Shown: positions 3,134 through 17,716 of the stretch, one piece after another
Position numbering within the stretch: the first letter of the stretch is position 1
How the letters are laid out: the number at the start of each line of letters is the position of its first letter
Assembly: GCA_002726335.1 (NCBI GenBank)
Contig: PBSR01000277.1
Coordinates: 1 to 18,803, forward strand
Source of the DNA: Gemmatimonadaceae bacterium
Lineage (GTDB): Bacteria; Latescibacterota; UBA2968; UBA8231
Reading direction: 5' to 3'
Length of the DNA stretch: 18,803 bases
Made by a program: the position numbers and the translations under genes
The notes under the pieces: generated by a model
Seen by the model: the letters and a program-made list of their open reading frames with translations, nothing else
Databases searched by the model: none
What the model was told of the DNA's origin: nothing

Positions 3134-4873
3134 TCAGGCGCCGCCGGTATCGCGCGGCTCCAGGCCCAGCAGCAACAGCAGGAAGGTGTTGTGCCAGTAC
3201 GCCGTGTTGATGTACGGATCTTCCAGACTCGGCCAGTTGGTCCAGTAGGTCTCGTTGTGCGGAATGCGGTGATACCACTGCACCAGCGGGATGGCCGGCA
3301 GCTCGCGCAGCCAGATCTCCATCGCTTCGCGGAACAGTTCCTGTAACGCCGGATCGCCCGGCGAGGTCTTGCCCATCTGGTCGACGATGCGGTCGTACTC
3401 CGGGTTCGACCAGCGCCAGAAACGCTCGGCGTGTGTACCGGAGGGCTGCACGAAACGGCTGTGGTAAAGCCGCAGCGTGAAGTAGGGATCCCGCACGGAC
3501 CCACCGTTGCCCATCATGTAGGCTTTTGCCGTGCCCTGCGCCATGCGGGTGTTGGCGTCCGGTGTCATGCGGAAATCAGCGTCGAAGCCGGCCTTTTCCA
3601 GTTGGGCCACAAGCACCGGCGCGAGGTCATTGAAGATGCTGAAGATGTCGATGACGATCTGCAGCTTCTCACCGTCCTTGGTCCAGAATCCCTCGGCATC
3701 CCGCGCCCAGCCCTTGCGCTCCATGATGGCTGCCGTCTTGGCGGGGTCGTGCACACCGACTTCATACTTCTCCAGCAGATCCTGGATCTGGTCGGTGTAG
3801 GCCCGAATGGGTGGGAAATCGGGCAGTGGCAGGAGTGAGTGAGTTCCGGCTCCCTGCCAGCCGATGGCCACCAACTGCTCGCGGTCGATGGCGTAATTGA
3901 TGGCTCGGCGAATCTCAGGGTCGCTGAAGGGCGCCTCAAGATTGTTGAACCCCATGCAGACCGGCCACCAGTCGAGGTAGCCGTGGGGCAACTCCCGGCC
4001 GCTGAAGGTGGTCACGTTGGGGTTGGCGTCGAGAATCGACTGGATGTTCGGAGGCCGCAGATCGAGGCTGATGTCCATGGTGTTGGAGATGACATTCTGC
4101 ACCCGTTTCGTACCCTCCATGAAGGGCAGGTAGATCAGTCGTTCCACCTTGGGCAGATCCCTGAAACCGGTTTTTGCCGCCCACCAGTCATCACGTCGAT
4201 CCCACACACGCTGCTCAGGTACGGAGATCCTGATCCGGTAGGGTCCGGTGACCACGGGCCAGCCCTTTTCCAGATCGAAGTTGCTGAAGACCTCGGGATC
4301 CTCCCCTTCCCAGATGTGCTTGGGCATGATGGGGATGCCGTTGTCGAAGTTGTTGGTGAAGTAGCTGAACATGAAACGCGGGTTCGAGTCGGTCAGCTCG
4401 ATGTGTGCCGTGTAGTCGTCGACTGCCACAGCCTCCGCCACCCAGGCTTTCATGTCGGTGGAGAAACCCAGGGACGGGGCGTGCGACTTCAGCATGTTGA
4501 TCGTGAAGACGAGGTCATGCGCCGTCCAGGGCTGACCGTCGCTCCATTCGACCCCCTCGCGGATGTGCACCGTGACGGCTGTGTAGTCGTCGTTGTACTC
4601 GTGGCCGGTGGCGATCCACGGGATGATGTTGTCTTCCGCCGCGTAGGCGTTGTAGAAGTAGAGAGGCTCGTAGAGGTAGTTCCAGCCCGTTTTCGTGATC
4701 CCCGTCAACAGGAAAGGATTGAAGGCGTTGTAGTCCTTGATCTGGCCACTGCAATCGCCTTCGCTGGAGCAGTCCATGATCAACGTGCGGCTGCGGGGGA
4801 TGTCACTGGACTGGCCGCCGCCGCAACCGGCGAAGACCAGAGCCAGCAGGGCGAGCGTCAGAAACTTCCTCAT
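3134..4873 (-). CDS. ABC transporter family-5 solute-binding lipoprotein
   Basis: Protein of 579 residues of the extracytoplasmic SBP_bac_5 (OppA/DppA) family. The N-terminus MRKFLTLALLALVFAGC is a lipoprotein signal with lipobox FAGC, so Cys17 should be lipidated and the mature protein membrane-anchored. The diagnostic family motif is seen at about 105-125 (REGVEWSDGQPWTAHDLVFT). The early segment YEPLYFYN (68-75) resembles family-5 binders of oligosaccharides as I remember them, so the ligand may be a glycan rather than a peptide. The segment GPYRI and the C-terminal PAIPLVQWYHRI are also typical. It is the last gene of the cluster, six bases after the ATPase stop, with AGAGGA inside the last codons of that gene as its Shine-Dalgarno. 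Binding-protein genes usually come first, so this order is unusual. Ligand class is inference; family membership is secure. Confidence -1.
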   Translation of the reverse strand: MRKFLTLALLALVFAGCGGGQSSDIPRSRTLIMDCSSEGDCSGQIKDYNAFNPFLLTGITKTGWNYLYEPLYFYNAYAAEDNIIPWIATGHEYNDDYTAVTVHIREGVEWSDGQPWTAHDLVFTINMLKSHAPSLGFSTDMKAWVAEAVAVDDYTAHIELTDSNPRFMFSYFTNNFDNGIPIMPKHIWEGEDPEVFSNFDLEKGWPVVTGPYRIRISVPEQRVWDRRDDWWAAKTGFRDLPKVERLIYLPFMEGTKRVQNVISNTMDISLDLRPPNIQSILDANPNVTTFSGRELPHGYLDWWPVCMGFNNLEAPFSDPEIRRAINYAIDREQLVAIGWQGAGTHSLLPLPDFPPIRAYTDQIQDLLEKYEVGVHDPAKTAAIMERKGWARDAEGFWTKDGEKLQIVIDIFSIFNDLAPVLVAQLEKAGFDADFRMTPDANTRMAQGTAKAYMMGNGGSVRDPYFTLRLYHSRFVQPSGTHAERFWRWSNPEYDRIVDQMGKTSPGDPALQELFREAMEIWLRELPAIPLVQWYHRIPHNETYWTNWPSLEDPYINTAYWHNTFLLLLLGLEPRDTGGA

Positions 4874-4879
4874 GGGATG

Positions 4880-5920
4880 TTATTCCTCTTGTGGGGTAGC
4901 GCCGATGATGCGGGTCAGATCACCGCTTTCCAACGGCTCCTGCCCGTCGTACAGCACGCAGGAGGCCACACGGCCATCGTCGAGTCGGTAGAGGGGCGGC
5001 ATCTGCGCACAACGGGCTGACCCGTGGGCACACCGGGGGGCGTAGCGACAGCCCCCGGTCGCCTCGTCCGACACCTCGACGTCTTTCTCTTCGACCGCTT
5101 CCTCGATCCAGGCGCTGCCTGGATCCGGGACAGGGATCGAATGGATCAGCTCCCGGGTGTACGGGTGCTTCGGATCCGTGATCACATGCTCCACATCACC
5201 CGCCTCGGCGACGGTGCCATGGTAGAGGACGACGATTTTATCGCTCACCTGATAGGCGGTGGTCAGATCGTGGGTGATATAGATGAAAGAGATGCCGAAA
5301 TCGGTATAGAGTTTGTGCAGGCTCGACAGGATCGTCGCCCGCAGGGAGGCGTCCACCATGGACACCGGCTCGTCGGCGATGATGAGCTTCGGTTTGAGCA
5401 GCAGCGCTCGAGCGATTGTGATCCGCTGGCGTTGCCCGCCGGACAACTGATGGGGGTAGCGGCCCAGGGTCTCTTCCGGGCGCAGGCCGACGGTGCGAAG
5501 GGCCTCGTCAATCTGTTCGGCTGCCTGCTGTCTGGAGGAGGCGAGGCCGAACTTCTCGATCGGTGTCGTCAGGATATGATCGATCTTGTAGAACGGGTTA
5601 TAGACCTCGAAGGGATCCTGGAAGATGGCCTGCACATCCTGACGGAAGGCGCGTGTCTGGTCGCGGTCGAGAGAACTGACGTCCATGCCGCGATAGCGCA
5701 CAGATCCCTCAGAGGGTGGCGTCACGCCGAGCAGCAGGCGGGCGATCGTCGTCTTGCCACTGCCGGACTCGCCGGCGATGGTCGTGAAGGAAGGTGTGTC
5801 TCCGTCGATAGCCAGGGTGAAGTCGTCCACGGCCACCGTCTCGGTGGAGTCAGCCTGCAACAGGCCGCCGCCGCTGCGAAACACCTTGCGCACGTGCTGC
5901 GCTTCAAGCAGGGGTGGCAT
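4880..5920 (-). CDS. Opp/Dpp-type ABC transporter ATP-binding protein (OppF-like)
   Basis: ATPase of 346 residues that energises import through the two permeases encoded upstream. Visible elements are Walker A GESGSGKT (50-57), Q-loop Q101 in FQDPFEVYNPF, signature LSGGQRQ (159-165), Walker B LIIADEP (179-185) and the switch histidine H217 in YITHDL. The C-terminal oligopeptide-transporter extension follows KHPYTREL and carries Cys291, Cys297, Cys304 and Cys321, a pattern fitting the [4Fe-4S] site known in some Opp ATPases. The frame stays open upstream to an ATG at 5965, but the ATG at 5920 is preferred. It has AAGGAAGG five bases upstream and begins directly at the domain start MPPLLEAQHVRKVF. 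With this start it overlaps the preceding ATPase gene by 17 bases, which suggests translational coupling. It pairs with the ATPase at 5904-6902 as a heterodimer. Confidence -1.
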   Translation of the reverse strand: MPPLLEAQHVRKVFRSGGGLLQADSTETVAVDDFTLAIDGDTPSFTTIAGESGSGKTTIARLLLGVTPPSEGSVRYRGMDVSSLDRDQTRAFRQDVQAIFQDPFEVYNPFYKIDHILTTPIEKFGLASSRQQAAEQIDEALRTVGLRPEETLGRYPHQLSGGQRQRITIARALLLKPKLIIADEPVSMVDASLRATILSSLHKLYTDFGISFIYITHDLTTAYQVSDKIVVLYHGTVAEAGDVEHVITDPKHPYTRELIHSIPVPDPGSAWIEEAVEEKDVEVSDEATGGCRYAPRCAHGSARCAQMPPLYRLDDGRVASCVLYDGQEPLESGDLTRIIGATPQEE

Positions 5921-6902
5921 CGGTGCCTTCCTTTTCATGCAGCAGGCAAGACACGTGTTGTCCATGTCCCAACTGTGTCAGACCGGGCTCCTGGCGGGCG
6001 CAATCCTCCATCGCCTGCGGGCAGCGTGGGTGGAACAGGCAGCCACTCGGAGGATCCAGCAGCGACAGTCCGACCCCGGGGATGCCTTTGAAGGTGCCGC
6101 GGCGGTCGAAGGAAGGAATGCTCGAGATCAGCAGCTGGGTATAGGGATGCTGGGGGTTGCGGAACACGTCGGCCACGGTGCCGACTTCGACGAGTTTGCC
6201 GCCATACATGATCCCCACTCGCTCGGCGAACTGTGCCATCAGACCCATGTCGTGGCCCACGAGCAACACCGTGGCGTCCAGCTGCAACTGCAGCTGCCGC
6301 AAGGTCTGCATGATCTGCCGCTGCACGACCACATCGAGAGCTGAGGTGGGTTCGTCGGCCAGGATCAGACTCGGACCGAGAGAGATCGCCTGGGCGATGC
6401 AGGCTCGCTGCTTCATGCCGCCGCTGAGTTCGTGGGGGTAGAGTCCCGTCACTTCAGGCTTGAGGCCCACCCGTTCGAGCAGCTGCTCGAGGCGGGTCTG
6501 CATCTCGTCTCTGGTACCCTCTTCCCCATGTTCCCGCATCGTCAGCGTCAGCTGTTCGCCGATGCGCATCACTGGATTCAGCGAGTTCATCGCTCCCTGA
6601 GGTACCATGGCCACCCGCCGCAGGCGATTCTCGCGCACCTCCTCTTTCGACAGGGCCAGCAGGTCCATACCGTCGTCAAACACGGCACGGCCGCCGGCGA
6701 TGAGGCCGGGTGTCTTGATCATGCGCAACAGAGCCAGGATCATCGTCGTCTTGCCGCTGCCAGACTCGCCTACCAGACCGAAACGCTCCCCTTTGAAGAG
6801 CTGTAGGTCGACGTCGTTGACGGCTCGAGCCAGACCCCGACGCGTCTCGAAATGCACCTCCAGGCCCTGAATATCGAGAAGTACTTCTCGTGCCGTACTC
6901 AT
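5904..6902 (-). CDS. Opp/Dpp-type ABC transporter ATP-binding protein (OppD-like)
   Basis: ATPase of 332 residues, a normal length for the OppD/DppD group. Walker A GESGSGKT (45-52), Q-loop Q102 in VPQGAMNSLNP, signature LSGGMKQ (159-165), Walker B LILADEP (179-185) with the D-loop SALD, and H217 in LLVGHDMG are all intact. MNSLNP and the later HPYTQLL are hallmarks of the peptide/nickel/oligosaccharide importer family. The C-terminal extension contains Cys288, Cys294, Cys301 and Cys319, spaced as expected for the [4Fe-4S] cluster reported in some oligopeptide permease ATPases. The ATG at 6902 has GGAAG seven to eight bases upstream and follows the permease stop by 67 bases. It is the partner of the OppF-like ATPase, whose start codon lies within its 3' end. 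Confidence -1.
   Translation of the reverse strand: MSTAREVLLDIQGLEVHFETRRGLARAVNDVDLQLFKGERFGLVGESGSGKTTMILALLRMIKTPGLIAGGRAVFDDGMDLLALSKEEVRENRLRRVAMVPQGAMNSLNPVMRIGEQLTLTMREHGEEGTRDEMQTRLEQLLERVGLKPEVTGLYPHELSGGMKQRACIAQAISLGPSLILADEPTSALDVVVQRQIMQTLRQLQLQLDATVLLVGHDMGLMAQFAERVGIMYGGKLVEVGTVADVFRNPQHPYTQLLISSIPSFDRRGTFKGIPGVGLSLLDPPSGCLFHPRCPQAMEDCARQEPGLTQLGHGQHVSCLLHEKEGTDATPA
5926..5933 (-). promoter_or_regulatory. Ribosome-binding site deciding the OppF-like start
   Basis: AAGGAAGG on the minus strand ends five bases before the ATG at 5920. Neither of the two upstream in-frame ATGs has a comparable site, so this settles the start. It lies inside the 3' end of the preceding ATPase gene. 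Confidence -1.
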
Positions 6903-6969
6903 CGACGGATCTTCCGTGTCCCTGCGGCGTCGAATCTGCGCCCGGTCGGGATCAAGTGTTCACGCCGCC

Positions 6970-7827
6970 TCATACCGCTTTCCGCTGCTTCGGGTTGGCC
7001 AGCTCGTCGAGGCCGGCAGCGATCATCAGCAGGCCGACGAAGACCGTGCCGATAAACAGGATCGGAATCGCCCACCACCACCACATGCCGCGGATCAGCG
7101 CGCTGAAGGTGATGGCCCAGTAGATCGTCATGCCTACCGTGGGATCGTTCTGGGGACCCAGACCGAGAGCCTCGAGGCCAATAGAGGCCAGAATCGCCCA
7201 GTTTACGGCGTTGGCAAAGAGCGCGGCCAGGTAGGGCAGCAGGTTGGGAAAGAGCTCCTTCCAGATGATCTCGGCGGAACTCATGCCATTCAACTTGGCC
7301 ATCTGTACGTAGGCACGCTCACGCATGGTCAGCACCTGGGCGCGGATCACACGTGTGGGCCACATCCAGGCCAGCGAGGCCACCACCATGGCCATGATGT
7401 TGACGCTGATCTCCTCGCGGATCGTCGAAGCGATGGAGATGAGCACGACGAGGCCGGGCACCGTCAGCAGGGTGTCGACGACACCCCGTACGATCGTGTC
7501 GAAGGTGCCTCCCAGGTAACCGCTCGTGAAGCCGAGAAAGATGCCGACGCCGAGACCCACAGCGCCGGCCAGCAGTCCCACCCTCATGGTCATCGGTACG
7601 CCCACGACCATGACGGACAGCAGGTCACGACCGGCGTCGTCGGTGCCGAAGGGATGATCCAGCGAAGGCGCCAGGCGCGGAGTCGTCGACAGTGGCCGGG
7701 ACAGATCCGTATCGACGAACAGGGGTCCGAGAGTGCCGAACAGTACGATGAGGAAAATGAGAACGGTACCCGCGCCGAGCATGGGACTCTCGCGCAGATA
7801 GTAGAGGATCTGGTCGAGGCGACGCAT
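6970..7827 (-). CDS. Opp/Dpp-type ABC transporter permease (OppC-like)
   Basis: Inner-membrane permease of 285 residues. An N-terminal hydrophobic helix (about 16-36) is followed by the OppC/DppC-type periplasmic motif HPFGTDDAGRDLLS (58-71). Five further hydrophobic segments lie at about 80-103, 117-134, 141-158, 200-217 and 250-271. The cytoplasmic EAA-type loop that contacts the ATPases is at about 172-198 (AKLNGMSSAEIIWKELFPN). A run of four tryptophans (WWWW, 249-252) opens the last helix. The ATG overlaps the stop of the upstream permease by one base (TGATG), a classic coupling arrangement. It forms the heterodimeric pore with the OppB-like protein. Family assignment is firm; the substrate cannot be read from the permease. 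Confidence -1.
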   Translation of the reverse strand: MRRLDQILYYLRESPMLGAGTVLIFLIVLFGTLGPLFVDTDLSRPLSTTPRLAPSLDHPFGTDDAGRDLLSVMVVGVPMTMRVGLLAGAVGLGVGIFLGFTSGYLGGTFDTIVRGVVDTLLTVPGLVVLISIASTIREEISVNIMAMVVASLAWMWPTRVIRAQVLTMRERAYVQMAKLNGMSSAEIIWKELFPNLLPYLAALFANAVNWAILASIGLEALGLGPQNDPTVGMTIYWAITFSALIRGMWWWWAIPILFIGTVFVGLLMIAAGLDELANPKQRKAV

Positions 7828-8837
7828 CAGGCGTCACTCCGGTGGGAGATTCGCGGGTCCAGCAGGGGATACAGGAAGTCCATCATCATCGTGACGAGAC
7901 CGATGGCCAGGATGAGGATGAGAACGACACCGTTGATGACGGTATAGTCGGACGCCTGAATCGCCTGGAACAGCACGGTGCCGATTCCGGGATAGGCGAA
8001 GATCACTTCGACGATGACCTGACCGGCCACCACATTGGCCAGGGACAGACCCAGCGCGGTGAACTGGGGCAACATGGCGTTGCGCAGACCGAAGCGCAGG
8101 AAGATCGTCCGGTTGCGCAGGCCGTTGGCTTCGGCCAGAGAGATGTAGTCCTCCCCCGAAGTGGACACCATCATACCCCGCATCCCCAGGGCCCAGAAGC
8201 CCACCGCCTGCAGGACGATGGCGAGTCCGGGCAGGATCGAGTGGTGCACGACGTCGACGTAGTAGTCGAAGCTGGCGATGGCCAGCATACCCGGCGAGTA
8301 GCCGCCGGACAGGGGAAACAGTTTCAGCTTGAGGCCGAGGATATAGAGGACGATGAGACCGAGCAGATAGGGAGGGATCGCCGACATCGTCATCAGGGGC
8401 ACGGCCATACTGCGCAACCAGCGGGGAGACGCAGGCCAGGCAGACAGAGCTCCCAGCAGGGTACCGATGACAAAACTCATCAGCACGGAAACCACCATCA
8501 GACCCAGGGTCCAGGGCATGGCGTTGCCGATCAGATCGCCGACGCGGGCCGGGTAGTTGGCCAGCGAATAGCCGAGATCCAGCGTCAGTGTATCGCCGAG
8601 AAAGTTCAGGTACTGCTCGTACAGCGGCTTGTCGAGGCCGAACTTGGCCTGGTACGCCTTGACCATGGCCTCGATGCCATCCTGCCGCAGACCGCCGCTG
8701 GCGGCCAGTTGGCCCAGCTTCTCACGGATGGGATCACGCCCCGTGCCCAGGCGGGGGACGAAGAAGTTGACGCTGGCCGCCGCCCACACCACCACAAGGA
8801 AGAGGGAGACGCGCCGGATGATGTAGTTCCATTTCAT
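7827..8837 (-). CDS. Opp/Dpp-type ABC transporter permease (OppB-like)
   Basis: Inner-membrane permease of 336 residues, typical of OppB/DppB. The first transmembrane helix (about 9-28) is followed by a roughly 80-residue periplasmic part containing FGLDKPLYEQYLNFLGD, characteristic of the family. Further helices lie at about 109-131, 143-168, 200-219, 258-280 and 302-322. The EAA loop is at 235-257 (AEANGLRNRTIFLRFGLRN, ending near MLP). The C-terminus YPLLDPRI is also family-typical. It begins 69 bases after the mannonate dehydratase stop with only a weak GGA as ribosome-binding site, and its TGA overlaps the ATG of the OppC-like gene. It is the first transporter gene in transcription order. 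Confidence -1.
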   Translation of the reverse strand: MKWNYIIRRVSLFLVVVWAAASVNFFVPRLGTGRDPIREKLGQLAASGGLRQDGIEAMVKAYQAKFGLDKPLYEQYLNFLGDTLTLDLGYSLANYPARVGDLIGNAMPWTLGLMVVSVLMSFVIGTLLGALSAWPASPRWLRSMAVPLMTMSAIPPYLLGLIVLYILGLKLKLFPLSGGYSPGMLAIASFDYYVDVVHHSILPGLAIVLQAVGFWALGMRGMMVSTSGEDYISLAEANGLRNRTIFLRFGLRNAMLPQFTALGLSLANVVAGQVIVEVIFAYPGIGTVLFQAIQASDYTVINGVVLILILAIGLVTMMMDFLYPLLDPRISHRSDA

Positions 8838-8906
8838 GGCGAATCCGTGATTAACGACTATCGCCGGAGACGGAGCAAGTCCTGATCTCCAACCCGCAGG
8901 TACGGA

Positions 8907-9899
8907 TCACTCCGCGCCCTGCTTGTACACCGACTCGCGCAGGCCCTTGATGTAACCGATGGCGAAAAGCCGGCCGATGGAGGAGTACCCGGGCTGGTTG
9001 TTGTCGTCGCCCTCCATGGTCGGTACGTGGTCCGGACGCAGGACCCCCTCGAAACCGATGTCGCGGTAGGCCTTCATGCACTCGTACATGTCGGTCTGGC
9101 CATCGTCGTGGAAGGTCTCGACGAATTTCTCCGGTGTGCCGCGAACGTCCCGCAGGTGCACGAAGAAGATCTTGTCGTGGAAGTTCCGGATCACCTCAGG
9201 CAACTGGTCCGTCATCAGGGCGAAATTTCCCTGACACATACAGATGCCGTTCATCGGGCTGGGCGCCAGATCGAGAAGCTTCTGGTAATTGTCGACGCTG
9301 CGCATGATGCGACCCATGCCGCGCAATGGCGACAGGGGTGGATCGTCGGGGTGCATGGCGAGACGGACGCCGGCCTCCTCGGCCACGGGCAGCACCTGCT
9401 CGAGGAAATACTTCAGGTTATCCCACAACTGCTCCTCCGTCACCTGGTGCTCGGAGGGCGGTGCTCCCTTCATCAACTCGTTGTCGAAGCCGGTGACGTA
9501 CGCGCCGCCGCGACTCGGTGTCGTCGTCGAGGTGCGCGTCCAGTTGAGGATGGGCATCCACTCATAGCACCAGGTCTCGATTCCCAGGGCCCCCATCGTG
9601 CGGATAAGGTCCATGGCGTACTCGATCTCCTGGTCGCGGTCCGACAATCCGAGTTTGGCCTTGTTGAGTGGCGGGCGGGCCTCGATGACGTCGAGCTGGA
9701 AGCCGCCGTTCTCGTACGCCGTCTTCGCCCGGACGATGTTGGGATAGCTCCACGGGCGCTCGTCGGGGTGCATGTCGGCCGGGTCACCTGAGCGGCCAGT
9801 ATGCGGAAAGCCACCCACGACATAGTCGACACCGCACTGCTTGACCATCTTCCACAGGGGGGATGGATGGGGAGACATGACTTCGGCGATCTTGATCAT
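8907..9899 (-). CDS. uxuA: Mannonate dehydratase
   Basis: Protein of 330 residues matching UxuA, the TIM-barrel enzyme that dehydrates D-mannonate to 2-keto-3-deoxygluconate in hexuronate catabolism. The blocks I recognise are LAMHPDDPP (H183), MCQGNF (C222), [11 protein letters not shown] (H248), a segment at 258-271 ending GQTDMY, and LRPDHVP (D290). H183, C222, H248 and D290 correspond to the expected metal ligands, so it should be active. It is slightly shorter than many UxuA proteins (about 350-400 residues), mostly at the termini. There is no signal peptide, so it is cytoplasmic. It lies 28 bases after the GH5 stop and 69 bases before the OppB-like gene on the same strand, linking an extracellular glycosidase to an importer. 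No uxaC, uxuB, kdgK or kdgA is present in the window, so the rest of the pathway must be elsewhere. Related sugar-acid dehydratases sharing the fold remain possible. Confidence -1.
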
Positions 9900-9927
9900 C
9901 TCTATCTCGTTTCGGTGTCTTGGGTGG

Positions 9928-11892
9928 TCAACGGAGGAGGGTCATGGGGTGGCTCACAGTACGCCCCGCCGACTGCAGGCGGTAGAAGTAGGTGCCGCTG
10001 GCGACCGCCGTGCCGGCATCGTTCAGGCCATCCCAGTGCGCTCGGTGTGTACCGGCGGCGACGGTCCCATCGACGAGGGTGCGCAGCCGCCGCCCGAGGG
10101 CGTCGAAGATTGCCATGTCAACCGTCGTGGTGCGGTCGAGGTCGAAGGGGATGACCGTGGCCCCATTGAAGGGGTTCGGGTAGTTCTCCGACAGTCGGGC
10201 CAGCGTCGGTACACCGGCGGTAGTGGCGACAACGGTTGCCGGCACACTCACGATCCGGATGTCGTCAAAGGCCAGGCGATTGCCCAGCAGATCGTGGTGC
10301 TCGGCGACGATTTCGAAGCGGTCTACGTCGGTCCAGTCGAACACTCCCTGCGGCTCGTGGAAGTCACCGTCCCAGGCACCGTGCTCGTGGAACGAGCTCA
10401 GCGGGATCTGTACCAGCTGCCAGGAATCGTCCCAGGTGACGTCGGTGAGAGACTCGTCCACCGTGACCCGCATGCGCCACGGCAGGTCGCCTCGTTCGGC
10501 GTGATGCCCGTCGAGGAAACGGACATCGACGGCGGTGCCGGGGGTATTGCCGCGGACACGGAATTCCAGGGCGAAACCGGCCCTCACGAGCTGCGACAGG
10601 TCGCGATCGGGGCGGAAGTCGAAGGTCACAGCGTTGTATCGATCGATATCGGTCAATGAAATGCCGAAACGACCACTGACTGCGGCTGATTCAGAATAGA
10701 AGTCGAGCTCGCCGGCGCTGATCCAGCTGTTCTCCACGATTCCGGTCTCGATGACATCGCTGTACAACGAGAAGGCTTGTGTATCGGGACGCTGCACGAA
10801 TTCCGCCTGCGGCGGCAGGCGCAGACCGAGGGCCGCCAGCAACGGCTCGTTCAGATCGAAATCGAACTGCTCCCCCGTCCCCGCCTCGAACAATCCGAAG
10901 CCGCCCTGGTAGTCCCACATCACCCAGGGGATGTCCTGCCGTTCCAGATGGGAGCGCACCGTCTCGTACCAGAATACTCTGTCCCGCGGATCGCTGTTGG
11001 GGATGTGGACGCCGATCTCCCCGCAGAAGATCGGCACATCCCGCTCCCGAGCGAAGTCGGCAGCGATGTCGAGCAGGGCCTCCACATCAGCCGCCCTGCC
11101 CTGGGTTCGATAGGCTGTCAGCGCACCCTCTACCCAACTGCCGGACAGGGCCGTCGGCACAGCCGGCATCCGCGCTGCGTCAAAGGGAAAGGGCACGCCG
11201 GCAAGGCTCAACATGGAGGGCGTCGTCCACGTGGCGCCCTGATGGGTGAAGACGAAGGGATCGTAGAAGTGGAACGTGTAGATCAGGTGTTCGTCTTCAT
11301 AGGTGGGCATGAGCCGCAGGTTCCGATAGCTGCTCCAGTTGCCCGGGGCGATGACGATCACACGAGCCGCATCGATGGCACGAACTGCGGTGACGGCAGC
11401 CTGCTGGATCTCGTGCCAGGATGTATCCTCGATGCCGTGCGGCTCGTTGAGGATCTCGAACAACAGATGGGGGGCGCTACCGGCGTAGTGTCGGGCGATC
11501 TGCTGCCACACCGGCAGCAGGAAGCGATCGACGTCGGCAGCGGTCGATGCCTGCGACGCAGGGTGATTCTCGAGGATGAGCTGCAAGCCGAGCTCTCCCG
11601 TCCAGTCAACGATCTGATCCAGGAAGAAGAACAGCAGTGGGTCGACGGTGAAGTCCGGATCGGGGCCCGTCATGCCGGGCAGATTGACGGGAAGTCGGAT
11701 CACGTCGATTCCGAGGGACTGGATGTCGACCAGGTCCTCCCGGGTGAAACGGCTGAACTGAACCTGGCGGACGCCGGGTGCCTGCAGCCATTGGGTCAGG
11801 TTGATGCCTCGCGTGAACGGCACGGTCGTTCCTTCAACCACGGTGCCCGACAGCAGAACCAGCGCCATCAGCATCCACATCGTTGCTCTCAC
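9928..11892 (-). CDS. Secreted GH5 glycoside hydrolase with C-terminal FlgD/T9SS-type domain
   Basis: Protein of 654 residues in three parts. After a signal peptide ([21 protein letters not shown]) comes a GH5 (cellulase-type) TIM barrel at about 25-360. Its acid/base is Glu150 in FEILNEPHG, its nucleophile Glu292 in FCGEIGV, and it has the HxY pair H208/Y210 and the barrel Trp in VMWDYQGG. Residues about 370-550 form a beta-rich, CBM-like domain. The tail (about 565-654) starts ENYPNPFN and ends [18 protein letters not shown], the pattern of type IX-style or FlgD-like C-terminal domains. The enzyme should hydrolyse a beta-linked glycan (glucan, mannan or similar) outside the cell. The GTG at 11892 overlaps the upstream stop (GTGA). 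It is preferred over ATG at 11880 because it supplies the positive signal-peptide residue (R2), although the ATG has a weak GAGAG upstream. Exact substrate is unknown. Confidence -1.
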
Positions 11893-13583
11893 GGCCGCGC
11901 CGGTTGTTGCAGATGGACGATCTGGTTGGCTGCCTGCGAATCCGCTTCCGACACCGAACCATCAGGCCAGGTCACACGGAGTCGCGCGTTGTCGGCGGTT
12001 CCCAGGCCGAAACGCAGAACTGATTCGCTGGATCCCAGATAGCCGGCCGCAGAATTGAGAGTCTGCATCTGCTGCCCTGCGACGGAATACAGTTGAACAC
12101 GACTGCCAGCCACCGGCCGATGGTCCGGTCCTGCCAGCCGCACGGCGATCCAGTTGCCGGGCTCCGGTGTGTCGTTGCGCAGCAGCGTTGGCGTGTCGTT
12201 GAGGTTGACGACGAATACATCGGTATCGCCGTCGCCGTCGTAGTCCCCGGTGCAGCTGCCGCGGCTGACCTTGACGACGGCCAGCCCCGGCCCCGCCGCC
12301 GCTGTCGCGTCGCTGAAATGGCCCTGACCATCGCCGCGGAACAGCTGGTTCGGCTGGGCGTATCGTGCCCCTGTCTCGGTGACGTCGACCTGTGGGTAGA
12401 CGTGGCCGTTGGCGACGAACAGGTCCTGATCCCCGTCCAGGTCGGCATCGAAGAAGTGTGTTCCCCATCCCAGCAGGGGGATCGTCGGGGCCGCCAGACC
12501 CGCCTCGACCGTGGCGTCGGCGAACTGCCACGGGCCATCGTTGCGGTACAACGTATTCGTCTCGCCGTAGAAGTTGGTCACGTACAGGTCGGGGTCGCCG
12601 TCGTTGTCATAGTCGGCAACATCGACACCCATGCCGGCCTCCGCCTCGCCGTCGCCGTTGAAGGCGACACCGGCCTCGGTGGCCACATCTGTGAAGTGCA
12701 GATCCCCGTCGTTGCGGAACAGGACGTTGGCCGTCTCGTCATTGGCCACGAACAGGTCGATTCGGCCGTCACCGTCGAAGTCTTCGGGCACGACCCCAAG
12801 ACCATAGTACTGGTTGGCATCGCCGATTCCGGAGGCTGCCGTGACGTCGCTGAATCTGCCACCGCCGTCATTGCGGTAGAGCTGGTCATCAGCCCCTGGC
12901 ATTCCCATGGGGCCACAGTACACACGGATTCCGCCCAGGTACATGCAGAGATCATCGTAGGCCGGGTCTTCGGGGACGTCGTCCAGGCTGAAGCGTACAT
13001 AGTTGGTCACGTAGAGGTCGAGGTCGCCATCCAGATCGGCATCGAAGAAGGCGGCACTGGCACTGAAGTCGGCCCCGCCGGTCCCGGAGGACGCTGTGAC
13101 GTCGGTAAAGACTTCCTGGCGGTCATGGCGATAGAGAATGTTGGACCCGTAGTTGGTGACGTAGAGATCGTCCTGCCCGTCGTTGTCGATGTCTCCCACT
13201 GCGACCCCGGCCCCCCACCCCCGGTGAGCGATCCCGGCGGCGGTCCCGGTGGGCAGGAAGCGTCCCGAGCCCTCGTTGTGGAACATTTCGTTGCCCGGTC
13301 CGGCACCGAGAGTCTCGGCGGTAGAGCCATTGACGACGTACAGGTCCAGCTGGCCGTCGCCGTCATAATCGAAGAAAGCGGCACCGCTGCCGTGAGCTTC
13401 GAGAATGTGCCGTTTCCGCTGGCCGCCGAAGACATTTGGAACTTCGACACCAGCGGCCGCCGTCTGGTCCGAGAAGTGTAGTCTTGCAGGCGTGTTGGCC
13501 GGACCCGCCGACAGCGGTATCACCCGTGCCAGAACGCCTGCCAGCAATACCGTCGCTGCTGCCCGCGGTCCTAGCGGGCGCAC
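11889..13583 (-). CDS. Secreted FG-GAP repeat / ASPIC-UnbV (CRTAC1-like) protein
   Basis: Protein of 564 residues. Seven calcium-binding FG-GAP loops of the form DxDxDGxxD lie at 72-80, 131-139, 181-189, 268-276, 324-332, 379-387 and 447-455, suggesting a seven-bladed beta-propeller. The C-terminus (about 477-560) is an ASPIC/UnbV domain (NWIAVRL, then LGSSESVLRFGLG and VTWPDGSV). The cysteine segment DDLCMYLGGIRVYCGP (211-224) is typical of CRTAC1-like bacterial proteins. The GTG at 13583 gives a signal-like N-terminus (MRPLGPRAAATVLLAG), though an arginine interrupts the hydrophobic core. The frame is open further upstream to 13952, but that stretch overlies the SUMF1-domain gene and reads as non-protein-like R/G/Q-rich sequence. 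It overlaps the SUMF1 gene by 13 bases and the GH5 gene by 4. Such proteins are usually extracellular; glycan binding or scaffolding is an inference and no enzymatic residues are evident. Confidence -1.
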   Translation of the reverse strand: MRPLGPRAAATVLLAGVLARVIPLSAGPANTPARLHFSDQTAAAGVEVPNVFGGQRKRHILEAHGSGAAFFDYDGDGQLDLYVVNGSTAETLGAGPGNEMFHNEGSGRFLPTGTAAGIAHRGWGAGVAVGDIDNDGQDDLYVTNYGSNILYRHDRQEVFTDVTASSGTGGADFSASAAFFDADLDGDLDLYVTNYVRFSLDDVPEDPAYDDLCMYLGGIRVYCGPMGMPGADDQLYRNDGGGRFSDVTAASGIGDANQYYGLGVVPEDFDGDGRIDLFVANDETANVLFRNDGDLHFTDVATEAGVAFNGDGEAEAGMGVDVADYDNDGDPDLYVTNFYGETNTLYRNDGPWQFADATVEAGLAAPTIPLLGWGTHFFDADLDGDQDLFVANGHVYPQVDVTETGARYAQPNQLFRGDGQGHFSDATAAAGPGLAVVKVSRGSCTGDYDGDGDTDVFVVNLNDTPTLLRNDTPEPGNWIAVRLAGPDHRPVAGSRVQLYSVAGQQMQTLNSAAGYLGSSESVLRFGLGTADNARLRVTWPDGSVSEADSQAANQIVHLQQPARP

Positions 13584-14275
13584 CGGAGGCCTACACTGTT
13601 GCCTTTGATGTAGGAATGGGACGACCCCATGTCGTTGCTTTTGGCACAACCCGCCAGGGACTTGCCGTTCACCCAGGAGCCCCCCCGGAGCCTGGGTTTG
13701 CCGTTGGCGTCTATCGCCCACTCCCAGACATTGCCGCCCATATCCCAGATACCGTAGGCGCTGCGACCGTGCGGGAAACTGCCCACCGGCGCCGTCTTGA
13801 GAAAGCCGTCGGCCTCGCCGAAGATGTTGGCCCGCGGCAAGGCTTCGGGTCCGGCGACGCGCAAGTGATGTCCCCAGGCGAAGGTGAGCTTCTCCGGGCC
13901 CTCGCAGGCCAGTTGCCACTCCGCCTCGGTGGGAAGCCGCTTGCCCGCCCACTCGCAGTACCCCCTGGCACCCGCATAGGAGACTTCCGTCGCCGGATGC
14001 TCGTCAAACCCTTTCTTTGGCCGGAAGACGCCGTCCGCCTCTTCGATGAGGACATAGGCACTCGTCATCTCGACGGGGGGCACACCCTTGACTCGCTCGT
14101 TACCCATCTCATTGAGATACACGGCCATCTGCCGATTGGTGACCTCGTAGAGATCCAGGTGGAACCCGGGGTCGCCTATGGGTACCATCTCTCCGGTTAC
14201 AGGGCGAGGGGCGTCGGCGGCGATACCTGTCAACGCCGCCAACAGGGTCAGGATTCTACTCCAACTCATGTTCAT
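13571..14275 (-). CDS. Secreted SUMF1/FGE-domain protein, short, lacking active-site cysteines
   Basis: Protein of 234 residues, shorter than the usual 260-320 for this fold. A signal peptide (MNMSWSRILTLLAALTGIAADA) precedes a compressed N-terminal half that lacks the FxMG motif. The recognisable FGE-sulfatase/C-type-lectin-like blocks are EVTNRQMAVYLN (44-55), CEWAGKRLPTEAEWQLAC (107-124), YGIWDMGGNVWEW (174-186), RLRGGSW (195-201) and VGLRCAR. In true formylglycine-generating enzymes RGGS is followed by two catalytic cysteines. Here the equivalent positions are Asn203 and Ala208, with only Cys210 nearby, so sulfatase activation is unlikely. ATG at 14275 has a strong GAGGAGAG site. It is the first gene of the nine-gene minus-strand cluster and overlaps the CRTAC1-like gene by 13 bases. 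A binding or structural role, perhaps on a glycan, is possible but not shown. Confidence -1.
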   Translation of the reverse strand: MNMSWSRILTLLAALTGIAADAPRPVTGEMVPIGDPGFHLDLYEVTNRQMAVYLNEMGNERVKGVPPVEMTSAYVLIEEADGVFRPKKGFDEHPATEVSYAGARGYCEWAGKRLPTEAEWQLACEGPEKLTFAWGHHLRVAGPEALPRANIFGEADGFLKTAPVGSFPHGRSAYGIWDMGGNVWEWAIDANGKPRLRGGSWVNGKSLAGCAKSNDMGSSHSYIKGNSVGLRCAR

Positions 14276-14278
14276 CGA

Positions 14279-14286
14279 CTCTCCTC
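14279..14286 (-). promoter_or_regulatory. Strong ribosome-binding site of the first operon gene
   Basis: GAGGAGAG on the minus strand, with GGAG five bases before the ATG at 14275. It is the clearest Shine-Dalgarno in the window and fixes the start of the first SUMF1-domain gene. Confidence -1.
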
Positions 14287-14300
14287 ATTGTCAGCCTGAT

Positions 14301-14330
14301 AGTATAACCCTCGGCTCCGGTAAGGGTGAA
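14301..14330 (-). promoter_or_regulatory. Putative sigma70-type promoter for the minus-strand operon
   Basis: On the minus strand TTCACC (14330-14325) and TATACT (14306-14301) are separated by 18 bases. The -10 box differs from TATAAT at one position and the -35 box matches TTGACA at four of six. The predicted start near 14294 leaves a leader of about 19 bases containing the GAGGAGAG site. It is well placed to drive the SUMF1-to-transporter cluster. It was found by eye only, and promoter consensus in this lineage is not established. Confidence -1.
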
Positions 14331-14389
14331 GACCTGCTGTGCATTCAGGTCGCCACCTGTGCCGCGATTGAGTATCATCTCTACGGGAG

Positions 14390-14409
14390 CCGATCGTCGG
14401 TGCGATCGG
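14390..14409 (+). promoter_or_regulatory. Inverted repeat in front of the large exported protein gene
   Basis: A perfect 7-base inverted repeat, CCGATCG (14390-14396) and CGATCGG (14403-14409) with a 6-base loop, ends two bases before the AAGGA ribosome-binding site (14412-14416) of the gene starting at 14424. It could be an operator for a dimeric regulator or an mRNA hairpin affecting translation. An upstream TATCAT (14373-14378) resembles a -10 box but no good -35 accompanies it. Confidence -1.
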
Positions 14410-14423
14410 GTAAGGAATTGGTC

Positions 14424-16781
14424 ATGTCCATGCACACGATGACTCTGTGGTTGGCTTTCACCGCACTGATCCTGGGATTGTTCTGTGATCCCGGCCAGAC
14501 CGACGAACTCCGCTTTGACAGTACCAGTGACTGGCAGCCATGGGACATCCCCCAGGGTATCGTCACGCTGGGAAGGGACGGCGTGCTTCGTCCCGTCGAG
14601 ATCCGCAAGAACATCAACGCCTCGCTGAACGCTGCCGCACTGGGAGGCGGGGTCCACAAGACCGGCTCCAATGCATTTCAGGCTGCCGCCGTGCTCGATG
14701 GCGATCCGACCACCGGTTGGGCCCCCGACAGCACGGCTGCCGAGGCTGACTGGTTCATCGAGATCGACCTGGGTCGGGCCGTCTCCGCCCACCGCGTCGC
14801 CCTGCAGTTCGACGAATCGGCCTCCCCCTTCGAGCTGTTCGACCTGCTGCTGTCCACCGGGGAGCCCGCCGTGGACGTGGTTGGCAATCCCATCGAGGGC
14901 ACTCTCGTCTATCGGATCAGTGAGCGCTACAAAGCCAACGACCGGCACCGCGTCACCTTCGAACTGGATCAACCCCTGCACACCCCGATCCGCTACGTGC
15001 GTGTGCAGCCGCTGACTTTCGTGCCCGGTGCCAGACTGACGGAGATCGAAGTGGCCGGCTTTGGCGACAACCTGTTGACCAACCTGCTCGACAAGGGCGG
15101 CAATATAGAGATCGTCACCGCCATCGAACTGGGGGCGGACGCGGTGGCCCTGGGCAACGCCTTCTCGTTGATCGATGGTGATCTGGTCACGCGTTATTCG
15201 CAGCGCAACGAACCGCGGGCGGCCTTCGACATCTTCGGCCACATCACCCTGGACCTGGGTGCTGTCTTCTGGACAGATCTGGTACGCCTCATCAACGGCG
15301 TCGTCGTGCGCTCAGGCAATGGTGGTGGCATCACGACGGCGCAGTTCATCTCACGCCGAAGTTTCATCTACCGCTTCTACGAAATCCTTACCTCCGACGG
15401 CTCCCTGTCTCCGGACGGCACGCGGCGGTGGACGAAGCACTTCTCCGACTGGTCGACGGACGAGATGCGCCTGCGAGGTCTGGCCGATCACAACTTCGAC
15501 CCCATCCCGGCTCGTTTCGTGCGCCTTCGCTGGCGAGTCTGGGACGCGGCCTGCGCCTTCGGAGCGGAGGTCGCCAGTCAGGCCTTTACGGCGAGGAACT
15601 GCCTGGTCACAGGCTGGACGGAAGAGATGCAGGTTTTCGGCGCGGGCTTCCCGAGAGAGGCCAGGTTGTCCTCACCGTTGCTCGATCTGGGTGAGGGCAA
15701 GAACCTCAACGCCGTGCGTTGGGCGGCCGACGCGCCTCCGGGTACTCGTGTAGAGATTCGCACGCGCACCGGCAACCAGGTGGAAGAAGTGCTCACCTAT
15801 CGTGACAAGAACTTGAAGGAGGTCACGGCGCGATCCTGGGGGAAACTGATCCCGAGCTTCCGCGGTCCCATCGACACGACCCAGGTCCCCGGTGATGACT
15901 GGAGTCCATGGAGCACGGCCTACGGCGTCTCAGGGGAGCGTTTCCAGTCGCCCTCCCCGCGACGGTATCTCGAGCTGAACATCCTGCTGATCACAGATGA
16001 GCTGGACAGGGCACCAAGTCTCGACTGGGTTGCCGTAGACTTCTCGCCGCCTCTGGCAGGCAGAGCCTTCGGTGAGGTCACACCCAGTCAGGTGCGCCCG
16101 GGACAGCGCACGGAGTTCAGTTATTTCCTCCGCTCCGAGGACAGCCCCATCGGTTTCGATCGTCTCGCTGTCGAAGCCTCGACGGATCTCGAGTTTGTCG
16201 ACACACAGATCGATGGTTCCAGCATCGACGCCGTGGCGACACCCACCGCGGAGGGGTTCGTCCTGGCTCTACCACGCCGGGTACGTGCAGGCGAGCTTGT
16301 GGAGGTCCGATTCGCCACCGCCGTCTATCTCCAGTCGACGCGCTTCGACCTGTTTCTCGAGGCCAACCGTGACGGGCAACAGATCCGTCAGCGAGTCGAC
16401 GCCGGCGATGCCAGCCCCGACGTGGGGAGCAATTCGACCGTTGTCAGCATCCCCGTGAGTGCCCACGTGTTTGCCGGCATCGACATCTTGCCGCCGGTGC
16501 TGACGGCCAATGGCGACGGCATCAACGACGAACTCACCGTGGACATCGATCTGGTCAATGTCCTCAGTCCGCGACCCCTCAGCCTGCGCCTCTACGACCT
16601 GACCGGCCGCCTCGCCCACCAGCAGGAGCGCCTGGTGACCGCGGGGCAGCACGTCCTGTCGTGGGACGGGCGCGGTGTCGGCGGCAGACTCTTGCCGCCG
16701 GGGATGTACGTCCTGGAGGTGGTCCTGGAGGGGGACGCCGACCGGCAGGTCGAGCGTCGTGTCGTGCCCGTCGTCTACTGA
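14424..16781 (+). CDS. Exported discoidin-like protein with NGDG/FlgD-type C-terminal domain, function unknown
   Basis: Protein of 785 residues. An N-terminal export signal (MSMHTMTLWLAFTALILGLF) is followed by two discoidin (F5/8 type C)-like beta-sandwich regions. The first, at about 60-212, has LDGDPTTGWAPD and WFIEIDLGRAVSAHRVALQ; the second, at about 232-410, has LIDGDLVTRYS, ITLDLGA and FVRLRWRVW. A third module (about 415-680), shared with the paralogue at 17716, contains PSFRGPI, DDWSPWS and SPSPRR. The C-terminus (about 690-785) carries LTANGDGINDEL and LYDLTGRLA, then LSWDGRG and PPGMYVLEV, resembling CHU_C or FlgD-Ig sorting domains. ATG at 14424 has AAGGA seven bases upstream and starts the signal sequence; the frame is open to 14178 but that extension is not protein-like. 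The lipobox is absent (Phe before Cys21). A surface adhesin or glycan-binding role is inference. Its stop overlaps the converging SUMF1-domain gene by seven bases. Confidence -1.
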   Translation: MSMHTMTLWLAFTALILGLFCDPGQTDELRFDSTSDWQPWDIPQGIVTLGRDGVLRPVEIRKNINASLNAAALGGGVHKTGSNAFQAAAVLDGDPTTGWAPDSTAAEADWFIEIDLGRAVSAHRVALQFDESASPFELFDLLLSTGEPAVDVVGNPIEGTLVYRISERYKANDRHRVTFELDQPLHTPIRYVRVQPLTFVPGARLTEIEVAGFGDNLLTNLLDKGGNIEIVTAIELGADAVALGNAFSLIDGDLVTRYSQRNEPRAAFDIFGHITLDLGAVFWTDLVRLINGVVVRSGNGGGITTAQFISRRSFIYRFYEILTSDGSLSPDGTRRWTKHFSDWSTDEMRLRGLADHNFDPIPARFVRLRWRVWDAACAFGAEVASQAFTARNCLVTGWTEEMQVFGAGFPREARLSSPLLDLGEGKNLNAVRWAADAPPGTRVEIRTRTGNQVEEVLTYRDKNLKEVTARSWGKLIPSFRGPIDTTQVPGDDWSPWSTAYGVSGERFQSPSPRRYLELNILLITDELDRAPSLDWVAVDFSPPLAGRAFGEVTPSQVRPGQRTEFSYFLRSEDSPIGFDRLAVEASTDLEFVDTQIDGSSIDAVATPTAEGFVLALPRRVRAGELVEVRFATAVYLQSTRFDLFLEANRDGQQIRQRVDAGDASPDVGSNSTVVSIPVSAHVFAGIDILPPVLTANGDGINDELTVDIDLVNVLSPRPLSLRLYDLTGRLAHQQERLVTAGQHVLSWDGRGVGGRLLPPGMYVLEVVLEGDADRQVERRVVPVVY

Positions 16782-17716
16782 GCAGATTCGGTTGAGAAGG
16801 TTGCCTTCAACCGGCCCCAGCTTTCCGGGGCGACGACGGTTGCGGGCAACGTGGAGGCGATCGCGGCACAGCGGAAGCCGATCTGTCTGTACGTGAGAGT
16901 CTCCGGCAGCCCGCTGCGGTCCGTGGTCCGCAATCGACGGGACTCGCTGCCGAAGGAGCCACCACGGAGCACCCGGTTGAGGCCGGTGGCAGGACCCTCC
17001 GGATGGCTTGCCGGGCTCATGGCGTAGTAGCTCTCGCCATACCAGTCGCTGACGAATTCCCAGACGTTGCCCGCCATGTCATGGACGCCGTAAGGAGAAA
17101 TCCCGAGATCGTACTCGCCCACCGGCGACGAGGTGAAGAAGCCGTCGGCGGAGTCACCACCGCAACAACCCTCCTTCCCATAGTTGGCCCGGTCGCGCGA
17201 GATCTCCTCGCCCCAGGGGTAGGTGCGTTCGTCAGTGCCCCGGGCGGCCTTTTCCCACATCGCCTCGGAGGGCAATCGCAGTCCTGCCCATCTGCAGTAG
17301 GCGTAGGCTCCCAGCCAGCTGATCTCTCCCGCGGGACTGTCGGCCAAGGCGTCAAGGGAGACGCGATAGTCGCCGGAACGTGTCCGGCGGATCCCCGCAT
17401 CAGGGTCCCTCACGTCGACGAAGGCGCGACCCTCCACATCGACGTGACGGCCACCATCGTTGAGGAAGGCGACGTAGAGGCGATTGGTCACCTCGAAACG
17501 GTCGATGAAGTAGTCGTTCAGAAACACACGGTGCGGGGGCTGCTCATCCGGTTTACCCCCAGCCGATCCCATGGTGAAGGTCCCGGCAGGGATCAACACC
17601 AGATCGTGCACCGTGGCGGCAACGGTCATGTGTGAGCGGGTCATCTGCGCCGTTACAGCCACGGGCAGACAGAGCAGCAGTACGGTGAGTGACGCCGCTC
17701 TGTGGGCGTCAGGCAT
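16775..17716 (-). CDS. Secreted SUMF1/FGE-domain protein, lacking active-site cysteines
   Basis: Protein of 313 residues with a signal peptide (MPDAHRAASLTVLLLCLPVAVTAQ) and a full-length FGE-sulfatase domain at about 37-285. Blocks are LIPAGTFTMGS (41-51), EVTNRLYVAFLN (75-86), CRWAGLRLPSEAMWEKAARG (141-160), YPWGEE (166-171), YGVHDMAGNVWEFVSDW (209-225), LRGGSF (250-255) and GFRCA (280-284). Ser257 and Leu262 stand where formylglycine-generating enzyme has its two catalytic cysteines, so it is probably not a sulfatase activator. Adjacent cysteines C184/C185 are unusual. A roughly 28-residue tail follows the domain. The ATG overlaps the stop of the large exported protein gene by one base (TGATG), indicating coupled translation and probably linked function. 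The stop region overlaps the converging plus-strand gene. It is a second, more complete relative of the protein at 13571-14275. Confidence -1.
   Translation of the reverse strand: MPDAHRAASLTVLLLCLPVAVTAQMTRSHMTVAATVHDLVLIPAGTFTMGSAGGKPDEQPPHRVFLNDYFIDRFEVTNRLYVAFLNDGGRHVDVEGRAFVDVRDPDAGIRRTRSGDYRVSLDALADSPAGEISWLGAYAYCRWAGLRLPSEAMWEKAARGTDERTYPWGEEISRDRANYGKEGCCGGDSADGFFTSSPVGEYDLGISPYGVHDMAGNVWEFVSDWYGESYYAMSPASHPEGPATGLNRVLRGGSFGSESRRLRTTDRSGLPETLTYRQIGFRCAAIASTLPATVVAPESWGRLKATFSTESAQ

Follow-up and report, generated by a model that had tools for sequence, protein, structure and literature searches.

The DNA analysed here, referred to as the window, is an 18,803-nucleotide stretch of contig PBSR01000277.1 (assembly GCA_002726335.1) whose central feature is a run of nine genes on the minus strand (3134-14275), in which a complete peptide-type (Opp/Dpp-type) ATP-binding cassette (ABC) importer, OppBCDF with its substrate-binding protein (SBP), is joined to genes for a UxuA-family mannonate dehydratase, a family GH5 glycoside hydrolase, a CRTAC1-like protein and a SUMF1-like protein (Table 1). 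All nine genes had Pfam support and followed one another in the order reported in the first-pass annotation, which was made from the letters of the window; as stated there, no gap exceeded 69 bases, the widest lying at 8838-8906. From this spacing the nine genes are probably co-transcribed, and none of them encodes a regulator. The closest relatives were metagenome-assembled genomes of Latescibacterota, some of which are filed as Gemmatimonadetes, Gemmatimonadota or Gemmatimonadaceae. On balance, we favour the reading that this importer takes up oligosaccharides or sugar-acid derivatives and that its OppBCDF, in relatives, most likely works for orphan SBPs encoded elsewhere in the genome as well.

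The importer was found to comprise two BPD permeases, two ATPases with oligo_HPY tails, each containing Walker A, LSGG and Walker B motifs, and one SBP, in agreement with the claim of a complete Opp/Dpp-type system. Grouping of the SBP with characterised binders had been proposed as a check on its assignment to glycan uptake, and in this comparison it clustered with saccharide binders and apart from those of peptides or nickel. Its nearest kin, both in sequence profile and in predicted fold, were mannoside, chito-oligosaccharide and cellobiose binders, with TM1223 and TM1226 of Thermotoga maritima as the nearest solved proteins. The SBP matched 10 NCBIfam SBP models, in every case with a score far short of the cut-off. 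A candidate lipobox cysteine (Cys17) was invariant across alignment A1, which holds 13 SBP sequences including that of the window. To judge by this kinship and the modelled fold, an importer of the peptide family here very likely carries sugars, and its assignment to the saccharide type was therefore upheld. Source annotations of SBPs of this clade include the name peptide/nickel transport system.

Table 1. Genes of the minus-strand run, in order of position in the window
Feature	Position	Strand	Evidence
SBP family 5 (cluster C), candidate lipoprotein, saccharide-type	3134-4873	minus	PF00496 192 bits; best solved relatives are saccharide binders
OppF-type ATPase	4880-5965 (longest open reading frame); start probably ~5920	minus	ABC_tran and oligo_HPY; Walker A/LSGG/Walker B
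OppD-type ATPase	5904-6902	minus	ABC_tran and oligo_HPY; Walker A/LSGG/Walker B
OppC-type permease	6970-7827	minus	BPD_transp_1; best NCBIfam model Opp4C, under its cut-off
OppB-type permease	7827-8837	minus	BPD_transp_1; relative of at least 70% identity in 20/64 phylum genomes
UxuA-family mannonate dehydratase	8907-9899	minus	PF03786 310 bits; PRK03906 239.7 vs cut-off 191; TIGR00695 184.8 vs 199.55
Secreted GH5 enzyme, type IX sorting tail	9928-11892	minus	PF00150 134 bits; Por_Secre_tail (TIGR04183) 30.5 vs cut-off 23; GH5 glutamates
CRTAC1-like FG-GAP/UnbV_ASPIC protein	11889-13559, start uncertain 13523-13559	minus	PF13517, PF07593
SUMF1-fold protein without the two-Cys motif of formylglycine-generating enzyme (FGE)	13571-14275	minus	PF03781 122 bits; Cys positions

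Conservation of the gene order was examined in genome contigs. Of the 108 stretches that matched, 93 code for an SBP relative, and the set was reduced to 76 distinct loci. Window-type permease B was present in 18 loci (in L056 as its last 38 residues only), and 17 of these show upstream DNA, since L005 starts inside the gene. Upstream of permease B, uxuA was found in two of the 17 loci (L001 and L002) and GH5 in none, so that the GH5-uxuA-opp-SBP synteny anticipated in the first-pass annotation did not hold and a conserved GH5-uxuA-opp locus was rejected. The CRTAC1-like gene lay upstream of the importer in 10 of the 17 loci, preceded by the SUMF1-like gene in seven of these, the other three beginning inside CRTAC1 at a contig edge; L012, L014, L015, L028 and L051 contain the importer and gave no CRTAC1 match. 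The conserved unit is SUMF1-like, CRTAC1-like, OppBCDF and SBP.

GH5 matches within the retrieved loci amounted to five hits of 87-132 aa in four loci, none of them a full enzyme. In a survey of the phylum that covered 64 genomes, 14 had a match to the GH5 catalytic domain, a strong one (54-57%) in eight; none of these eight has GH5 near permease B, and in six of them the two lie on different contigs. On the two single-contig chromosomes among the relatives, G003 and G053, GH5 was separated from permease B by 0.51 Mb and 1.83 Mb, and uxuA by 4.5 Mb (linear; 1.7 Mb if circular) and 0.50 Mb, respectively. UxuA matches occurred in 39 of the 64 genomes (E up to 1e-90) and adjoined the importer only in G001 and G002, two of the 20 genomes with the importer; in G003, uxuA is accompanied by genes for a PfkB-family kinase, an amidohydrolase, an enolase-superfamily protein and DUF1611. 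The uxuA gene of L164 shares four bases with the CRTAC1-like gene, and in the window the same overlap is formed by the GH5 gene, if the GTG at 11892 is its start, with uxuA following. Given the overlap in L164 and the absence of GH5 from the site in 17 loci, the GH5 gene looks to have been inserted at the window site, although it may instead have been lost elsewhere. At the corresponding site, L004 has three open reading frames between the CRTAC1-like gene and permease B (L004:2657-5909). In the second importer set of G002 (L056:5905-7070), the last 38 residues of permease B stand behind an open reading frame, which may reflect a chimeric assembly.

The numbers of permeases and binding proteins differed markedly. 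Counted at no less than 70% identity, permease B occurred in 20 of the 64 genomes, once in each apart from an extra fragment in G051, and G061 and G063 contained only a form of 54-55% identity. Clade SBPs, counted at 58% identity or above, numbered 110 in 22 genomes, with up to nine per genome (partial copies included), and all 20 permease genomes fall within these 22. On the chromosomes of G003 and G053, only two of the 14 window-type SBPs had a PF00528 permease within 10 kb and the remaining 12 had none within 30 kb, whereas 10 of the 15 other family-5 SBPs had one within 10 kb (Fisher p 0.008, the two genomes being related). Among 91 SBPs in the retrieved loci, 34 lay within 8 kb of a match to permease B or C of the window, 31 had no such match with at least 5.5 kb visible on both sides, and 26 were cut by contig ends or undecided. 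A short clade SBP of 307 aa in G053 (L163:9949-10872) is possibly a decaying orphan.

In a quick maximum-likelihood tree of 86 SBPs, the window protein was placed in a clade of 15 rows with a Shimodaira-Hasegawa-like approximate likelihood ratio test (SH-aLRT) value of 100, together with 13 adjacent SBPs and one cut SBP. This clade is enclosed by one of 71 rows (SH-aLRT 99; 30 orphan, 21 adjacent, 19 cut and the window), in which several groups of orphans recur across genomes beside a few rows that stand singly. Of the 15 rows that fall outside, which come from other phyla apart from a distant copy in G003, 11 were adjacent, three cut and one orphan. In L012, L014, L015 and L028, the importer is followed by SBPs in tandem. 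Both the tree and the tandems would fit duplication beside the importer and later dispersal.

Six orphan neighbourhoods were sampled and chosen genes scanned, and sugar-acid, sulfatase or sialidase-like genes were seen in three of the six, although the kinds of gene seen are common in these genomes. L065 contains one gene each of the UxuA family and the enolase superfamily, together with a sulfatase, Gfo/Idh genes and DUF4832. In L017, a sulfatase, Gfo/Idh, a thiamine pyrophosphate enzyme and an amidohydrolase were accompanied by a separate pair of binding protein and ATPase that belongs to a different ABC type. L046 has a BNR (sialidase-like) gene, Gfo/Idh, two genes of the enolase superfamily and one of the DHDPS family; the DHDPS-family gene scores over the dapA cut-off, so that it may be a lysine gene.

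Residues of the predicted binding pocket were compared among eight SBP groups. The chito-oligosaccharide binding protein CBP of Vibrio (1zty, 5yqw) belongs to the same SBP subgroup, and its stacking tryptophan is retained as W560, the consensus in all eight groups; unlike this residue, positions 411, 413 and 561 of the window clade, which align with CBP contacts, differ between groups, as does position 61. Ten sugar-contact positions were mapped by hand from the alignment, with Asp9, Arg435 and Phe436 left out and others possibly missing. Their mean between-group entropy was 1.09 as against 0.80 over all columns, a difference with p 0.11 relative to all columns and p 0.03 relative to columns conserved within groups; dropping position 254, the least surely aligned, gave p 0.01, this choice having been made after its zero entropy was seen. 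The variability is suggestive of different ligands for the SBP groups, with which it agrees weakly.

The GH5 protein contains both catalytic glutamates (E150 in NEP and E292 in GEIG), and its C-terminal sorting domain exceeded the TIGR04183 cut-off, marking it as type IX cargo and supporting the earlier description of a secreted enzyme; SprA was found in all four relatives searched. The GH5 query gave 62-145 matches per genome in five relatives, and all but one of the matches listed hit the later part of the protein only. The set of cargo proteins sharing this sorting tail (GH5 C-terminus, window 9931-10182) looks very large in relatives. The best solved kin of the enzyme carry endoglucanase names, and one of them, 3amc, is Thermotoga Cel5A, which also acts on mannan; close kin in the protein search were named from Latescibacterota, KSB1 and Planctomycetota. 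The UxuA protein has the HPDDPP, Cys, His and RPDH stretches common to solved UxuA and lies over the PF03786 and PRK03906 cut-offs, and the equivalog model TIGR00695 was not reached, indicating membership of a subfamily and not of the equivalog itself.

The run had been interpreted in the first-pass annotation as a polysaccharide-utilisation locus for a uronate-containing glycan that does without SusCD. The latter part was borne out, with no SusC or SusD family among the window proteins scanned and SusD absent from all four relatives searched. The saccharide-type importer and the GH5 enzyme with its sorting tail also stood, whereas the conserved locus did not and the uronate reading was weakened. 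In the textbook route, UxaC and UxuB feed UxuA, and a dedicated uronate-glycan locus would have GH5 cutting outside the cell, the importer taking in aldouronic oligosaccharides, and the uronate passing through UxaC, UxuB and UxuA. UxaC, however, was found in none of the 20 importer genomes and in three of the 64 overall (G009, G010 and G023), the same search being positive in seven of 14 control genomes, and no UxuB-type Mannitol_dh_C domain (PF08125) was found in either single-contig chromosome or in G051; it is on these grounds that the reading lost weight. Glucuronidase, lyase, UxaC and UxuB families were likewise not seen among the window proteins scanned, and neither GH5 nor uxuA is conserved at the site. 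A UxuA-family enzyme does nevertheless stand beside GH5 and a saccharide-type importer, and the GH5 orthologues of G003 and G057 have genes of the enolase superfamily and of Gfo/Idh type in their vicinity. Asp271 and Arg273 are invariant in the 13 A1 sequences, in a loop that aligns with the sugar-contact loop of Vibrio CBP and has uncharged residues at these positions in the Thermotoga binders; they might be relevant to charged ligands, although residue 271 is Glu in two of the eight groups. Moreover, a UxuB-type match above the cut-off, spanning 108 of 190 positions, was obtained once in each of G001 and G002, the two genomes in which uxuA lies inside the operon. This leaves room for a uronate route in the nearest relatives and so raises this explanation at the expense of the one we favour. 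A 2015 paper on single amplified genomes describes galacturonate and glucuronate routes to 2-keto-3-deoxygluconate (KDG) in other Latescibacteria (PMC4454575). Taken together, a dedicated uronate-glycan locus appears improbable, and a beta-mannan or beta-glucan fits at least as well. Since the SBP is of mannoside type and the enzyme a mannonate dehydratase, a mannan route from mannose through mannonate to KDG would be an economical alternative.

It could also be that the orphan SBPs do not share the importer at all, acting as sensors or with another transporter, and that the window operon is an ordinary single-ligand importer. Chito-oligosaccharide SBPs have been described as acting in the negative control of vibrio chitin signalling as well (PMC10667598), and a second Opp set of 54-55% identity exists in several genomes, with its own SBP in L155. 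Against this explanation stand the lack of nearby permeases around 12 of the 14 window-type SBPs of the two single-contig chromosomes, the co-occurrence of SBP clade and permease across genomes, and the tandem SBPs that adjoin the importer in four loci, and we regard it as rather unlikely. Several observations count against the shared saccharide importer that we prefer: G055 and G064 have a clade SBP and no such permease was found in them; the genomes surveyed are related, so that the counts are not independent; the orphan pattern comes from the genomes of relatives and not from that of the window; L147, L148 and L149 showed little glycan chemistry in the one, one and five genes scanned, with no sugar link in the first two and, in L149, a TIM-barrel isomerase-like gene and a Gfo/Idh gene alongside a GTPase, a kinase-like gene and a LacI-type gene; and kinship with saccharide binders does not by itself define the ligand. 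If the importer instead carried peptides or a metal and stood beside GH5 and uxuA by accident, this would accord with the source names, with the oligopeptide and dipeptide ABC transporters listed in the 2015 paper (PMC4454575) and with an S15 peptidase gene just downstream on the opposite strand, but the kinship and predicted fold of the SBP, and its scores far under the NCBIfam cut-offs, make this very improbable.

According to the reading of a shared saccharide importer, the SBP would capture the ligand, OppBC would carry it across the membrane and OppDF would power the transport. An oligosaccharide of beta-mannan or beta-glucan would be the likelier ligand, ahead of a uronate-specific glycan, and UxuA may turn D-mannonate, arising from mannose oxidation, into KDG. 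The SUMF1-like, CRTAC1-like, OppBCDF and SBP genes would form the older unit, which the UxuA-family gene may have joined in this lineage and GH5 in this genome, and relatives would most likely use this one OppBCDF for several orphan SBPs of the clade as well. As a single permease set was found in each of 20 genomes against 110 clade SBPs in 22, and 12 of 14 SBPs had no permease within 30 kb, a hub-and-spoke mode of uptake is put forward tentatively, at a little under an even chance, in which a single importer, fixed next to the CRTAC1-like and SUMF1-like genes, would work with as many as nine SBPs of one clade, duplicated beside the importer and then dispersed, each with its own ligand.

An importer of this kind beside hydrolases has precedent. 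Transporters of EFGKL layout consist of an SBP, two permeases and two ATPases. In Thermotoga maritima, the xtp, xlo, mtp, bgl and cel clusters are described as five-gene EFGKL transporters beside glycoside hydrolases, secreted ones among them, the xtp cluster including an alpha-glucuronidase (PMC3750489), and sugar importers of the peptide family next to hydrolases are therefore already known. The window resembles these loci in combining a peptide-family sugar transporter with a hydrolase, and TM1223 and TM1226 come from the same organism, but in Thermotoga several pathways each have a transporter of their own under named regulators (PMC3750489). At the site of the window importer, GH5 lacks conservation, the nine genes include no regulator, and the SUMF1-like and CRTAC1-like genes are the conserved partners. 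In the pneumococcal AmiA/AliA/AliB system, a main core is shared by several SBPs. The Opp system of Borrelia burgdorferi is reported to have five OppA proteins, a primary OppB1C1 and OppDF, and an orphan permease (PMC7822543). Both systems are alike in having one main permease/ATPase core and several SBPs, some encoded elsewhere; they carry peptides, however, whereas the SBPs here are of saccharide type. A secreted hydrolase with a type IX tail is also a feature of the SusCD-type loci of Bacteroidota, from which the window differs in that no SusC or SusD family was seen among its scanned proteins.

What would be new is that saccharide-type SBPs dispersed through a genome have one core in common, a sharing proposed here from genomic pattern. 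In the portions of the literature on shared or orphan SBPs and on Latescibacterota that were available, such a core was not recognised, and we do not claim that it is unpublished. Should the clade prove to bind sugars, some of the peptide use predicted for this uncultured phylum may in fact be uptake of glycans, given that clade SBPs are named peptide/nickel and that oligopeptide and dipeptide ABC transporters are listed for it (PMC4454575). If the core is shared, transporter specificity would be unreadable from gene neighbourhood, one permease standing for many ligands, and under a hub arrangement a new glycan would be gained by moving a binding protein and not a transporter.

The active site of FGE contains a CxxxxC pair near the C-terminus. 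The SUMF1-like protein of the run has cysteines only at 107, 124, 210 and 232 and lacks such a pair, and a role as FGE or sulfatase activator was therefore rejected. Searches of the window yielded no Rfam family at gathering score and no tRNA; a promoter scan gave two matches against a shuffled mean of 2.0, which is chance level, and a terminator scan two against 5.3, both within coding sequence, so that neither was taken as evidence. The run is flanked on one side by a UbiD gene and the convergent S15 peptidase gene, and on the other by genes at 14178-16781 on the plus strand and 16775-18801 on the minus strand. The products encoded there are a divergently transcribed F5/8 type C protein whose tail is CHU_C/FlgD-like, a second SUMF1-like protein and another FlgD_ig-tailed protein; the first of these has a relative at the contig edge of L001.
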